Shown: piece after piece, positions 35,783-40,502 of the stretch
Layout: each line of letters begins with the position of its first letter
Position numbering within the stretch: the stretch's first letter is position 1
NCBI RefSeq assembly: GCF_000316685.1
Contig: NC_019680.1
Coordinates: forward strand, 187,501 to 251,500
Direction of reading: 5' to 3'
DNA: 64,000 nt
Origin: Synechococcus sp. PCC 6312
GTDB lineage: Bacteria; Cyanobacteriota; Cyanobacteriia; Thermosynechococcales; Thermosynechococcaceae
Translations under genes and position numbers: made by a program
Notes under the pieces: generated by a model
The model's database searches: none
Seen by the model: only the letters and a program-made list of their open reading frames with translations
What the model was told of the DNA's origin: nothing

Positions 35783-36526
35783 ATGTCCAACCCGTTGCGT
35801 CTCCACTACATCCGTCATGTTCCCTTTGAAGGACCAGGAAATATTGCTAAATGGGCAGAAAGCCGGGGCTATTCCTTAACAGGCACTCATCTGGATCAAA
35901 ATGACCCCTTTCCTGGCCTGGACAGTTTTGATTGGCTGGTGGTTATGGGTGGCCCGATGAATGTGGATCAAGAAGCCGACTATCCCTGGTTAGCAGCCGA
36001 GAAACTATTGATTCTTGAGGCAATTAACACCGGTAAAACAGTTTTGGGGGTTTGCTTGGGGGCACAGTTAATCGCCTCGGTCCTAGGGGGTGTGGTTTAT
36101 CCAGGCCCTGAAAAGGAAATTGGTTGGTTTCCAATAGAACTGACAACTAAGGGACTTCAGTCTCAACTTTTTCCCCCAGGCCCAGATCAATTTATGGTCT
36201 TTCATTGGCATGGGGATACCTTTACGATTCCTAGCGGGGCCTGGGCCTTGGGGAGTAGTCATGCCTGTGCCCAGCAAGGGTTTCTCTATGATCAGCGGGT
36301 TTTGGGTTTGCAATGCCATTTAGAATCCACCCCAGAGAGTATCCAGGCCTTGTTGGATCATTGTGCCGATGAATTAGTACCAGGGCAGTACATCCAATCT
36401 GCCGAGACGATCCAAGCCCAATTCAACTATTTACCAGAATTAGAAAAAACACTTTTTTATGTCTTAGATCGGCTCCATGAACTATCGGTTAACGCGCCTT
36501 GTCTCAGTCAGGTTCAGGAAGGTTAA
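35783..36526 (+). CDS. Class I glutamine amidotransferase-like protein (GMP synthase-type domain)
   Basis: Stand-alone type 1 glutamine amidotransferase domain of 247 residues. The nucleophilic Cys is in G-V-C-L-G-A-Q-L, the oxyanion glycines in V-M-G-G-P-M, and the His in G-L-Q-C-H-L-E-S-T-P-E with the nearby Glu. Such proteins are often annotated as GMP synthase-like, but no synthetase domain is present and the acceptor is unknown. Its stop codon (36524-36526) directly touches the first inverted-repeat element. Confidence 0.9.
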   Translation: MSNPLRLHYIRHVPFEGPGNIAKWAESRGYSLTGTHLDQNDPFPGLDSFDWLVVMGGPMNVDQEADYPWLAAEKLLILEAINTGKTVLGVCLGAQLIASVLGGVVYPGPEKEIGWFPIELTTKGLQSQLFPPGPDQFMVFHWHGDTFTIPSGAWALGSSHACAQQGFLYDQRVLGLQCHLESTPESIQALLDHCADELVPGQYIQSAETIQAQFNYLPELEKTLFYVLDRLHELSVNAPCLSQVQEG

Positions 36527-36633
36527 CTATAGCGTTACTCATTTAGAGTGCGACAGGAGCAAGTCAGGAAATTGATGATTAAAAACACTTTGAAAATGAT
36601 AATCTGCTTAGAACAGCCTGCGTAACGCTATAG
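36527..36633. mobile_element. MITE-like element, copy 1 (107 bp)
   Basis: The 11-base ends are perfect inverted repeats: CTATAGCGTTA (36527-36537) and TAACGCTATAG (36623-36633). There is no coding capacity. It shares its ends and interior blocks (GAGTGC and AAGTCAGGAAATT) with a second copy at 38767. It sits between convergent genes: it begins right after the stop of the amidotransferase gene, and its right end supplies the TAG stop of the RibD-like gene on the other strand. No transposase of a parent element is in the window. Confidence 0.8.
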
Positions 36634-37308
36634 GCGTTGGTAGTTCAAAAAGAGTTCATCCCCAATTTGCTTTGTGGCCATCAGTTGAAATCTGGGGGCA
36701 GCCTGAACTGAAAATCCTAAGCCGGCCACAGGGGTTGCTGCGGTTGTGCCACCTAAGACTAAGGGGCAAAGTGTGACCCACCATTCATCAATTAAGTTTG
36801 CAGCCAGGAGAGAGGCAATGAATACCCCGCCCCCCAAGACGGCTAATTTCTTGACACCTAGGATTTGGAGTTGTTGATAAGCCGCCACCAGATCAATTTG
36901 ATCATCAGGAGTGGTGGGAGAAAGAATCTGCTCAAAACTGCCTTGATTCCCCCAGGCCCTGGCTCCAGCTTTTGTCGTTAATAGATAACGGGGAAGGGGC
37001 TGCTGAAAAAATCGTAAATCAGGGTCAATTTTTCCTGACTGAGAGCAAACAATTTGGATCGGTTGGGGTGGTTTCCCTTGGGCAAGCCGGGCCTGGATGA
37101 GGGATTCTCCTTGGACGCTCATGGCTGTGCCACCGGCCCTGAGGGTTGCTGCCCCAAAAATCACCCCATCGGCCTGGGCCACCAGTTCCTCAAGATGTTG
37201 GTAATCATGCTGCGACCCAAACAACTGATCTGGCCCGATAGCGGAGGCAATTTTGCCATCTAAACTCATTGCTAAAATCACCGTAGCCCAGGGGCGGGAT
37301 TGGCACAT
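36628..37308 (-). CDS. RibD C-terminal reductase domain protein
   Basis: Stand-alone RibD reductase-domain protein of 226 residues, related to the NADPH-dependent 5-amino-6-ribosylamino-pyrimidine reductase of riboflavin synthesis and to dihydrofolate reductase. Typical segments are V-I-L-A-M-S-L-D-G-K-I-A, G-V-I-F-G-A-A-T-L-R-A-G-G-T, and the cofactor loop L-A-V-L-G-G-G-V-F-I-A-S-L-L. The deaminase domain is absent. The ATG at 37308 is used; a TTG at 37326 is possible. Its last residues and TAG stop overlap the end of the MITE-like element, so the original C-terminus may have been altered. Confidence 0.88.
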   Translation of the reverse strand: MCQSRPWATVILAMSLDGKIASAIGPDQLFGSQHDYQHLEELVAQADGVIFGAATLRAGGTAMSVQGESLIQARLAQGKPPQPIQIVCSQSGKIDPDLRFFQQPLPRYLLTTKAGARAWGNQGSFEQILSPTTPDDQIDLVAAYQQLQILGVKKLAVLGGGVFIASLLAANLIDEWWVTLCPLVLGGTTAATPVAGLGFSVQAAPRFQLMATKQIGDELFLNYQRL

Positions 37309-37395
37309 GGTAAATATTCGTCTCAATATAATAATGCTAGACTCTGGCTATTGCGTTTTATCACCCTTCTCAATCTTCCTTGCGAGAACTCCCCC

Positions 37396-38772
37396 ATGTC
37401 TAGTAGTGGCCGGCAAGCTCAACCGCCCTTAGAGTTTTTACCCCCGACCTATAATGCCTTGGTTCGCTGGGGATTTGCCCAACTTCTGCCCCTGTGGATG
37501 CGTTGGCAAATGGGCCTGGAGCAAATTGAGGGGGGACATTTAGAGCGACTCGTCCAGGCCTATGAACAGTTTCAACAGGGCCAGGCCCGGATTTTATTAG
37601 CCTTTCGCCATCCCAGCACCGATGATCCCCTCTGTATGGGCTATTTACTCTGGCATTTAGTCCCCCGCCAGGCCCGGCAAATGGGGGTAAAACTCAAGCT
37701 CCCCATTCACAGTTATTTTCTTTATGACCGCGGGATTCCCCTCTGGGCTGGAGATGGGGTGGGCTGGCTCTTTGGGCAGTTGGGCGGCAGTTCAATTATG
37801 CGCGGGAAGTTAGATACCCAGGCCTTGCGAGCAGCCCGTGAGTTATTAGTCCGGGGTGAGTTTCCCTTAGCCGCGGCCCCGGAAGGTGCAACCAATAATC
37901 AAAGTGAACTTGTCAGCCCGTTAGAACCGGGAATTGCCCAGATGGGGTTTTGGTGCTTGGAAGATTTAATCAAAGCGGGGCGGTTAGAAGAAGTGTTGAT
38001 TATTCCGATTGGGGTTCAATATTCTTTGCTGAAACCAAGCTGGTGCAAATTAGGACAAGTTCTCAAGCAATTGGAAACCCAGGCCGGTTGTCAGCCCCCC
38101 ACCCCGGCCCATGATCCGGAAAGTCTATATCAGCGGCTCTTTCACCTAGCAACACATCTATTGAGCATTATTGAAAGATTTTATGTTGCCTCCTACCACA
38201 TCACGATTCCAGAGTTACCCCCCTGTCAAGGTCCAAATCAAGAGTTAGCCACACGCTTAAAACGGCTACTGGATATTGTCTTGCACGTTGCGGAGGAATT
38301 TTTTGGGATTAAACCTTCAGAAAACCTCGTGGATCGGTGTCGGAGAGTTGAACAGGCGGCCTGGGAGCGGATGTTTCGCCAAGACTTGGAGCAGTTGTCG
38401 CCTGTTGAGCGAGGGTTTGCCAATTGGTTAGCCCAAGAAGCAGAACTCCGGCTCCGTCATATGCGGCTTGCGGAACGATTTACCTCCATCACTGGGCATT
38501 ATGTGCGCGAGAAAAACAGTCCCGACCGCTTTGCCGAAGTCTTATTTATCTTGGCTCGGACGCTGTGTTGGATTGAAGATAAACCCCAGCCCGATAGTTT
38601 GTTCCTTGGCCCCCGCCGAGTTCGTTTAACCGTAGCCCCTGTCATTCCCCTGCGGGAGTATTGGCCCGAATATCAACAGAATCGCCGCCAGGCCCGTCAA
38701 GTAGTGCAAACTGTAACCGCTAAAATTGGCCAAAGCTATGAAGAGATTATCGCCAGCAAAAATGATCGATAG
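37396..38772 (+). CDS. Lysophospholipid acyltransferase-like protein (PlsC family)
   Basis: A 458-residue protein with the acyltransferase motif H-P-S-T-D-D (Hx4D) at about residues 73-78 (A-F-R-H-P-S-T-D-D-P) and a downstream P-E-G-A-T-N-N motif for glycerophosphate binding. It is longer than the typical 1-acylglycerol-3-phosphate acyltransferase, with an added C-terminal region of about 200 residues of unknown role. The ATG at 37396 (M-S-S-S-G) is preferred; an in-frame TTG at 37300 would overlap the divergent RibD-like gene. The TAG stop (38770-38772) lies inside the end of the second MITE-like element. Confidence 0.85.
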   Translation: MSSSGRQAQPPLEFLPPTYNALVRWGFAQLLPLWMRWQMGLEQIEGGHLERLVQAYEQFQQGQARILLAFRHPSTDDPLCMGYLLWHLVPRQARQMGVKLKLPIHSYFLYDRGIPLWAGDGVGWLFGQLGGSSIMRGKLDTQALRAARELLVRGEFPLAAAPEGATNNQSELVSPLEPGIAQMGFWCLEDLIKAGRLEEVLIIPIGVQYSLLKPSWCKLGQVLKQLETQAGCQPPTPAHDPESLYQRLFHLATHLLSIIERFYVASYHITIPELPPCQGPNQELATRLKRLLDIVLHVAEEFFGIKPSENLVDRCRRVEQAAWERMFRQDLEQLSPVERGFANWLAQEAELRLRHMRLAERFTSITGHYVREKNSPDRFAEVLFILARTLCWIEDKPQPDSLFLGPRRVRLTVAPVIPLREYWPEYQQNRRQARQVVQTVTAKIGQSYEEIIASKNDR

Positions 38773-38874
38773 CGTTATCAATTTTGAGTGCTGATTGGGA
38801 TAAGTCAGGAAATTCTTTATGGGCGGTTCTTTTAAGATTTCTACTCTCTCAGAATAGTATGCCTAACGCCATAG
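38767..38874. mobile_element. MITE-like element, copy 2 (108 bp)
   Basis: The ends CGATAGCGTTA (38767-38777) and TAACGCCATAG (38864-38874) are imperfect inverted repeats matching those of copy 1. Interior blocks GAGTGC, AAGTCAGGAAATT and an AGAA-x-AG run near the right end are shared at the same spacing. It supplies the stop codon of the acyltransferase gene (C-G-A-T-A-G read as Arg-stop) and lies 16 bases from a truncated gene. Sequence divergence from copy 1 in the middle suggests that both are old. Confidence 0.75.
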
Positions 38875-39099: not shown

Positions 39100-40359
39100 T
39101 TAAGATTGACCTGACTGTTCTAGGGGAATTCCACATTCCTTGCAATGGGGAAGATAGGTATAGGTGGGTTGATGGCAGTGAGGACAGTCTTGGTATTGAT
39201 GAAAGCCGCAATGGGCACAATAGGGATCTGATAGCCGGATTTTCCGACCACATTGGATGCAGCGGGATTTTTGGTAGCGATTGCTGGCCTGGGTCGCGGG
39301 ATGTAAAAACAGCCGTTGCCCTAATTTGATTAACCCAAAACCCACGAGGGGAATTAAGAAAATATAGACATAGCTAACTAAAAATAAAAGTTGCCCAAAT
39401 AGGGTTGTGATCAAACTGAAAACAACGGAGAAGACTGCGCCAAATCGTAGGACTTCAAAGATTTTCAGAATCAAGGGAATCAAAAAGATCACAAATAAAT
39501 GCCAGCTAATCAGAGCTAACAGGCCAAATTGTCGTTGCCAGGCCCAGCGTTGTACCCAGCCAGCCAGCCCAATTAAGGGAGCTAAAAAGAGGACTTGGAG
39601 GATTAACTGTTGGGTCGGATGCCAAAAGCGCGCGCTGTCATAGCCCTGTTGGACGGCCTGAAAAGCGGAATCTTGATTGAGGAATTGAATAAATTTTTGA
39701 CTGTTGGGTTGCTGGAGTAAGGTTTCTTGGAGTTGCTGAATATCTTGTTTCAGGGTTTGAATTTTTTGTTCATTGGCTTGTAAGGTTTGGCGGGCCTGGG
39801 CCGCAGCAACGGCATTAATGGATTGGGACGGGGCCTGGCCGGCAATTTGCTCTAATAAAGTCGAGTCATATTCAGCCCGGATTTTGCGATTAGCGGTGGC
39901 GAGGAAATCAATGGCCTGCTCCTGTTGTCTCAGTCGAGCTAGGGTATTGCGGGTGCTGGGAGTAACGATGGCATCACGGCGAGCGGCATAGTCCAAGCAA
40001 ACTGGGGAAAGTTGACCGAGGTGATCCTGGGCTTGGCGGCGATACTGCAACTCTAAAGAATCATTACTTGCGTTCTCTAGGGCAGTCCGAACTTGGGCAA
40101 AATCACGGTTTAGTTGGGAATCTGTGGTCTGCTCTCGATAGGTTTGCCAGGCCGGGTAACAGGGATAGGCTTGCTCCGGGCTGAGGGGCCAACGAGCAAT
40201 ATCAGCCAGCCCAGAAAAGACCTGCCAGAGAATGAAAATATCAATAACAATGATGATACCCAGGCTGAGTTTATTGAGGGGTTGGGCTTGTTGTCGGGAG
40301 GATTGGTGATAAAACCGTTGGATCCAGGCCGAGAGGGTTTGGCGCATCTGGGCGATCAT
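39100..40359 (-). CDS. Membrane protein with C-terminal double zinc ribbon, unknown function
   Basis: A 419-residue protein. Order: one N-terminal membrane helix (about residues 33-50), a long Gln-rich helical extracytoplasmic or coiled region (about 90-235), four to five membrane helices (about 255-375), then two CxxC zinc ribbons (C-I-Q-C-G-R-K, C-A-H-C-G-F, C-P-H-C, C-K-E-C-G-I-P). Zinc-ribbon tails of this kind are common in cyanobacterial membrane proteins of unknown role. The ATG at 40359 is chosen; a GTG four codons upstream is possible. Confidence 0.7.
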   Translation of the reverse strand: MIAQMRQTLSAWIQRFYHQSSRQQAQPLNKLSLGIIIVIDIFILWQVFSGLADIARWPLSPEQAYPCYPAWQTYREQTTDSQLNRDFAQVRTALENASNDSLELQYRRQAQDHLGQLSPVCLDYAARRDAIVTPSTRNTLARLRQQEQAIDFLATANRKIRAEYDSTLLEQIAGQAPSQSINAVAAAQARQTLQANEQKIQTLKQDIQQLQETLLQQPNSQKFIQFLNQDSAFQAVQQGYDSARFWHPTQQLILQVLFLAPLIGLAGWVQRWAWQRQFGLLALISWHLFVIFLIPLILKIFEVLRFGAVFSVVFSLITTLFGQLLFLVSYVYIFLIPLVGFGLIKLGQRLFLHPATQASNRYQKSRCIQCGRKIRLSDPYCAHCGFHQYQDCPHCHQPTYTYLPHCKECGIPLEQSGQS

Positions 40360-40502
40360 GATCAGGCACACCGTTAGAAATAAGGGGCAGGCATGGCTTA
40401 AGTTTACAGTGGAGCTTTTTGGAAATTATCCAGATGGGAGCCTCAGACCAGTCGTGAGCTATAAAAGCAGCATTGCCTCCCAAGGGGAGAGGAATAGAGC
40501 CG

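Follow-up and report, generated by a model that had tools for sequence, protein, structure and literature searches.

Within a 64,000-nucleotide stretch of the genome of Synechococcus sp. PCC 6312 (here called the window; it spans C1:187501-251500, and the genome has two contigs totalling 3.72 Mb), direct reading of the sequence reveals two copies of a repeat of about 107 bp, both in plus orientation and 2.2 kb apart. The two repeats very probably belong to one family of non-autonomous miniature inverted-repeat transposable elements (MITEs) of the IS630/Tc1-mariner type, found in this genome only among those examined. The family is an orphan and probably inactive, and its supply of stop codons to neighbouring genes, two of them in the window, looks incidental. 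The two copies and their parts are as follows:

36527..36633, plus strand: copy 1 with its flanking target bases (C-TA...TA-G), from the sequence and family matches; profile score 74.5 bits
36530..36630, plus strand: core of copy 1, 101 bp, from TAGCGTTAC to GTAACGCTA, with boundaries inferred from the TA duplication across copies
36528..36529, no strand: left target duplicate of copy 1, TA (at the same place across copies, T in 29/31 and A in 30/31)
36631..36632, no strand: right target duplicate of copy 1, TA (at the same place across copies, T in 25/31 and A in 26/31)
38767..38874, plus strand: copy 2 with its flanking target bases, from the sequence; profile score 92.8 bits
38770..38871, plus strand: core of copy 2, 102 bp, with left duplicate GA (38768-38769) and right duplicate TA (38872-38873)

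The ends of copy 1, CTATAGCGTTAC and GTAACGCTATAG, are perfect inverted repeats. Those of copy 2 (CGATAGCGTTA on the left and TAACGCCATAG on the right) have one mismatch each against the ends of copy 1. An earlier note on this DNA had given both copies matching terminal inverted repeats and a shared inner block; this is right for copy 1, but the ends of copy 2 are not as described there. The inner block AAGTCAGGAAATT is indeed exact in both copies and has no third occurrence within the window. A plain DNA comparison with copy 1 misses copy 2, which is picked up by a profile of the family (E = 7e-28 for copy 2 and 3.6e-22 for copy 1, both copies being part of the profile training set).

This profile was built, by sequence only, from 14 full-length copies including the two of the window, with a mean column identity of 86%. 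The plain comparison with copy 1 had yielded 17 matches in the own genome, itself included; four of these (L003, L011, L013 and L014) were kept out, as they lacked an end or were shortened copies, and copy 2 was added. In the own genome the profile matches at least 61 copies at E ≤ 1e-3 and at least 83 at E ≤ 1. Scoring covered 150 of 921 first-look candidates, so these counts are lower bounds and more decayed copies may exist. Hence the MITE-like nature proposed earlier, together with the expectation of further copies, is borne out by many dispersed copies with terminal inverted repeats, which read CTATAGCGTTAC and GTAACGCTATAG in the consensus of the 14 aligned copies. The element also has no open reading frame (ORF), as had been noted: its consensus has stops in all six frames, and the longest open stretch is about 32 codons.

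The best 70 copies form a continuum from well-kept elements to wrecks reduced to the ends and a few inner blocks. For the analyses below, 61 copies were divided into a well-kept group (n = 31, at least 69 bits) and a decayed group (n = 30), a split chosen after the scores were seen. Pairwise identity among the 31 best copies is 95.3% at its highest, with a median of 80.6%, and there is thus no sign of recent activity. In two old copies, L079 and L093 (C1:1934724 and C1:1693859), inspection by eye shows the same extra inner segment of some 40 bp (CCTCCGGTAGGCT.TTGC.AACGCT.GTAGAA), which may be another small repeat nested within the element.

The two insertions within 2.3 kb, which the earlier note had thought telling, are not unusual in their spacing: among the 61 copies three neighbour gaps of up to 2.3 kb are observed where 2.2 are expected (P = 0.39; all P values in this text are uncorrected). 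Elsewhere, L022 and L018 (C1:3053433-3053540 and 3054141-3054246), both well preserved and in the same orientation, share a divergent intergenic region, with only 0.6 kb between them.

Outside the own genome, the profile matches none of 38 relatives, 22 of which are of the same bacterial family and none of the same genus, and none of 387 other genomes of the class, for which stricter filters were used and ten candidates were scored per genome; the two sets overlap. Since no relative of the same genus was searched, the restriction to one genome tells nothing about sister species. Plasmids contain no match for two copies of the family, and the exact 20-base right end is absent from a collection of genome contigs in which the own record was possibly left out.

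Across the 31 best copies, the TAGCG...CGCTA core is flanked by C-TA on the left and by TA-G on the right (C 18, T 29 and A 30 on the left; T 25, A 26 and G 18 on the right). The reconstructed empty sites carry TA in 28/31 cases and the full CTAG in 10/31. Insertion into TA with duplication of TA and a preference for CTAG is the habit of IS630/Tc1-mariner elements, and it is the habit of this family. IS630 itself reportedly prefers TA in CTAG, to go by the title of Tenzen and Ohtsubo 1991. Almost all insertions of ISY100, of the IS630 family, are at TA, which is duplicated, and TA duplication is a mark of the IS630/Tc1-mariner family (PMC2170065). The present elements resemble IS630 and ISY100 in TA duplication, and IS630 in CTAG preference, and, unlike these, carry no transposase; we infer that they were moved by an IS630-type transposase.

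Many MITEs have no known parent. The parent transposase hoped for in the earlier note did not come to light, either at 15 DDE_3 loci of the own genome or through end patterns, searched in this genome, in 387 other genomes of the class with up to two mismatches, and as two exact patterns in the contig collection. The sequence TATAGCGTTAC, with up to one mismatch, is absent from the fetched stretches of 15/15 DDE_3 loci, the only transposase family searched. End patterns gave 46 matches on the left (control 16) and 42 on the right (control 0) in the own genome, and 100 of 111 places in a further end-pattern listing were inspected by eye. Twenty fetched stretches, covering places outside the profile matches and some partial profile matches, held no convincing pair of ends at the distance of an insertion sequence, transposase genes being sought there only by the DDE_3 search.

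The same genome has eight closely similar IS630-type insertion sequences of about 902 bp with ends TATAGTACTTTCAATTAAG (L047-L054, for example C1:342859-343257). The matched open frame is of 187 amino acids in seven of them and of 292 in L054, which is one base shorter; our guess is that their transposase involves a frameshift between two reading frames.

Several points weigh against the assignment of the repeats to IS630/Tc1-mariner-type MITEs. No transposase with matching ends was found in the own genome, and eight of the 15 DDE_3 loci have ends TATAGTACTTTCAATT, with only TATAG in common with the element. The truly inverted end stretch is only about 12 bp long, versus 24 bp in ISY100. Exact CTAG is present at only the 10 of 31 sites given above, these empty sites are themselves reconstructed from the copies, and the set of relatives holds no genome of the same genus. 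Finally, the sequence TA-TA makes the boundary of the element ambiguous.

The genes around the two copies, with their stop codons, are listed here:

35783..36526, plus strand: glutamine amidotransferase class-I gene (PF00117), from the ORF list and a domain match
36524..36526, plus strand: native TAA stop of the glutamine amidotransferase-like gene, adjoining copy 1 and not made of element bases
36628..37308, minus strand: RibD C-terminal-domain gene (PF01872), start codon unsettled (37326 in the ORF list)
36628..36630, minus strand: TAG stop of the RibD-like gene, formed by the final three core bases of copy 1
37396..38772, plus strand: acyltransferase gene (PF01553), start codon unsettled (37300 in the ORF list)
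38770..38772, plus strand: TAG stop of the acyltransferase-like gene, formed by the initial three core bases of copy 2
39100..40371, minus strand: convergent partner of copy 2, with a weak double-zinc-ribbon match (PF12773) under the cut-off

Both copies therefore lie between convergent genes, as previously described: copy 1 between the amidotransferase gene (plus) and the RibD-like gene (minus), and copy 2 between the acyltransferase gene (plus) and the ORF at 39100-40371 (minus). The TAG stops of the RibD-like and acyltransferase genes do consist of element bases. Copy 1 also touches the TAA of the amidotransferase gene at 36524-36526, but that codon is native. The end of the element reads CTATAG both ways, so that a copy lying in or just behind the last codons of a gene gives it a TAG if the frame is right. 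Read inwards from either end, one frame in three of the consensus stops immediately at this TAG; counted from the left end, the other two frames reach a stop at bases 18 and 98, and counted from the right end at bases 24 and 32.

Without copy 1, the RibD-like frame would be seven codons longer (VNLPEPD) and would end in ...LNYQRLVNLPEPD instead of the actual ...LNYQRL. Without copy 2, and with TA in place of GA, the acyltransferase tail would read ...SKNDLVYGGCA instead of ...SKNDR. RibD-like genes have a match in 22/23 genomes of the bacterial family, own included, some via paralogues only, and the acyltransferase has one in 21/23, own included. Tails were read in 19 acyltransferase and 21 RibD-like relatives; the RibD-like L168, interrupted by a stop, was set aside, and fragmentary or distant matches (L142-L145, L167 and L169) were left out. 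Counted from the start used, the acyltransferase is 458 residues long, as against 453-480 in the 19 relatives, and the RibD-like protein has 226, as against 221-245 in 20 relatives. Neither shortening in the window stands out in length among relatives.

Gene 3′ ends fall inside an element four times among the 61 copies, and the window pair, in which both frames are shortened, makes up two of these. At the third (L032), the old stop was broken by the insertion, and the called protein has 278 residues versus 268. The fourth, at the decayed copy L072, has an altered tail and 354 versus 352 residues. A few C-termini and stop codons of Synechococcus sp. PCC 6312 are transposon-made.

Genes across the genome were called by a script, a crude codon-usage caller trained on the window with a length bonus; its calls account for 77% of the window, and some genes are probably missed and some starts wrongly placed. 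None of the 61 copies lies inside a called gene; three called gene starts that overlap old copies by two bases were disregarded because of the crude caller. Of all 61 copies, 21 are flanked by convergent genes, 13 by divergent and 26 by tandem ones; one is undetermined. Control sites were taken from the window and from the flanks of 70 profile matches, with overlapping and in-window flanks kept, and lie outside gene interiors, that is, in intergenic DNA or within a gene's final 30 bp. Well-kept copies are found between convergent genes in 15/31 cases, compared with 47/211 CTAG controls (Fisher P = 0.004) and 805/3673 TA controls (P = 0.0015), and between divergent genes in 4/31, compared with 51/211 CTAG controls. 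The decayed group has no convergent excess (6/30 convergent and 9/30 divergent), and for all copies the excess is 21/61 (P = 0.065).

In pneumococcus, the convergent excess of BOX, RUP, SPRITE and insertion sequence elements has been read as a loss of insertions into promoters (PMC3049150), and the distribution of the well-kept group would agree with a loss of this kind. The earlier note had offered target preference and selection for harmless positions as alternatives; the CTAG target and the absence of copies from gene interiors suggest a mix of both. On the reading of the repeats as IS630-type MITEs, a transposase of that type would once have moved the elements in trans, and would since have been lost, or never have been encoded in this genome, after which the copies would have decayed. 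They would have survived where little harm was done, outside genes. A copy landing in the right frame at a gene end would have provided the TAG, as for the RibD-like and acyltransferase genes, with the change of six or seven residues in tails whose lengths vary among relatives anyway.

A different reading takes the elements as bidirectional terminators, as the earlier note had suggested, or as RNA modules of the 3′ end, kept by selection between convergent genes. The convergent excess of well-kept copies, given above, speaks for it, and so does the capacity of the ends to pair as RNA: seven or more of the 12 outermost bases on the left pair with the 12 outermost on the right in 22/31 copies on the plus strand and 24/31 on the minus strand, although such pairing is expected of any inverted repeat. 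Against 40 shuffles each, the 31 copies fold with a mean z of -1.3 and -1.45, mostly with the ends paired, and hence only moderately better than shuffled sequence; L038 reaches -7.8. Copy 1 has a z of -2.64, but copy 2 has one of 0.11. Neither window copy has a terminator-like site (a GC-rich stem followed by a T run) or a promoter-like site, and Rfam covariance models do not match either of them up to E = 1. RNAalifold gives -3.1 kcal/mol for the 14 copies, with two-sided changes in 2/16 pairs and no stem joining the ends, and thus no consensus structure. Moreover, the decayed copies lack the convergent excess, it is weaker over all 61, and survival at harmless sites would be enough to produce it, as read for pneumococcus (PMC3049150). 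Evidence that the elements act as terminators or RNAs is weak, and we consider such a role quite improbable.

A related idea, that the family became a domesticated 3′-end module after an ancient burst, would have it that the well-preserved copies are those between convergent genes. If it were true, the paired ends would shape the 3′ ends of both transcripts, and CTATAG would close frames from both sides. We regard it as a long shot.

The transposase or element might also actively seek out stop codons or the 3′ ends of genes. Measured on rebuilt empty sites, 7/31 well-kept copies, the window pair included, and 6/30 decayed ones lie no more than 25 bp from the 3′ end of a gene. Among the controls the corresponding figures are 41/211 for CTAG (12/57 in the window and 29/154 in the flanks) and 534/3673 for TA (160/1059 and 374/2614). 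CTAG contains TAG, and by this measure CTAG sites tend to lie slightly closer to gene ends than TA sites do. For the well-kept copies there is no excess over CTAG sites (Fisher P = 0.64) and a weak one over TA sites (P = 0.20); the position at gene ends therefore needs no special targeting, and any bias could arise by way of the tetranucleotide and of survival. Active targeting of gene ends is very improbable.

That the two copies mark a gene pair which moved together, as a composite mobile unit, is extremely improbable: copies in the same orientation do flank a divergent pair, but their spacing is as by chance, and the RibD-like and acyltransferase genes are adjacent and divergent in 10/22 relatives (G002, G006, G007, G009, G010, G012, G015, G017, G019 and G021), all without the element, so the pair was not carried by the elements.

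A word search of the open-access literature, made by words and not by sequence, did not find the family named. Nezha, to go by the title of its description, is reportedly another MITE of cyanobacteria. The family shares with RUP of Streptococcus pneumoniae, by description and not by sequence, a length of about 107 bp, TA duplication, the lack of an ORF and the convergent excess. RUP has 107 bp, terminal inverted repeats of 9 bp, TA duplication and no ORF, and its 108 intergenic copies are over-represented between convergent genes (PMC2229807, PMC3049150). RUP, in its different host, is matched by IS630-Spn1 and described as highly conserved in sequence, whereas here the parent was not found and the copies are strongly diverged. 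The Correia or NEMIS elements of Neisseria include a class of about 107 bp with TA ends, terminal inverted repeats and more than 120 copies in one genome (PMC2229807, PMC10969869). The same sources describe terminal inverted repeats of 24 bp, promoters, ORF fusions and, in one class, an IHF site; by contrast, the window copies have no promoter-like site and 0/61 copies lie inside called genes. BOX elements of S. pneumoniae are enriched between convergent genes, and their ends give the stop in 36/58 overlapping coding sequences, with no strong evidence of truncation (PMC3049150). BOX is modular and has other ends, unlike the present family with its four gene ends inside an element among 61 copies. 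The supply of stop codons by repeats is thus a known phenomenon. The present case adds a family of IS630-type MITEs, seen so far in one genome, with copies of all ages. The control counts indicate that stops from a mobile repeat would need only a CTAG-like target and the loss of harmful insertions.

Looser end patterns give scattered matches beyond the own genome. In the contig collection, a looser left-end pattern occurs in two records, from Oscillatoria sp. CS-180 and Bosea lathyri. The Bosea lathyri locus scores 14.8 bits, with E 0.0015 over a search space of 67 kb, which is to be expected because the locus was picked by the same 20 bases, and was taken as a chance match. Its 8 kb stretch contains no inverted partner at up to two mismatches, and inspection of the ORFs by eye shows no obvious transposase. 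One genome (G001) has a single right-end match with two mismatches (L190), without a partner end and unscored by the profile. Left-end matches with up to two mismatches occur in 10 other genomes of the class, three of which show other small repeats by eye. Other cyanobacterial genomes contain distinct small repeats, about 105 bp long by eye, whose ends are similar (TATAGCGTTA.YCATTTAGG and TATAGCGTTACGCATTGAGG), at L178, L182, L186 and L188 (G099), at L175, L181 and L185 (G230) and at L179 and L183 (G311). The family profile scores none of these, so that kinship is unproven; they may represent MITE families of their own whose ends are related.

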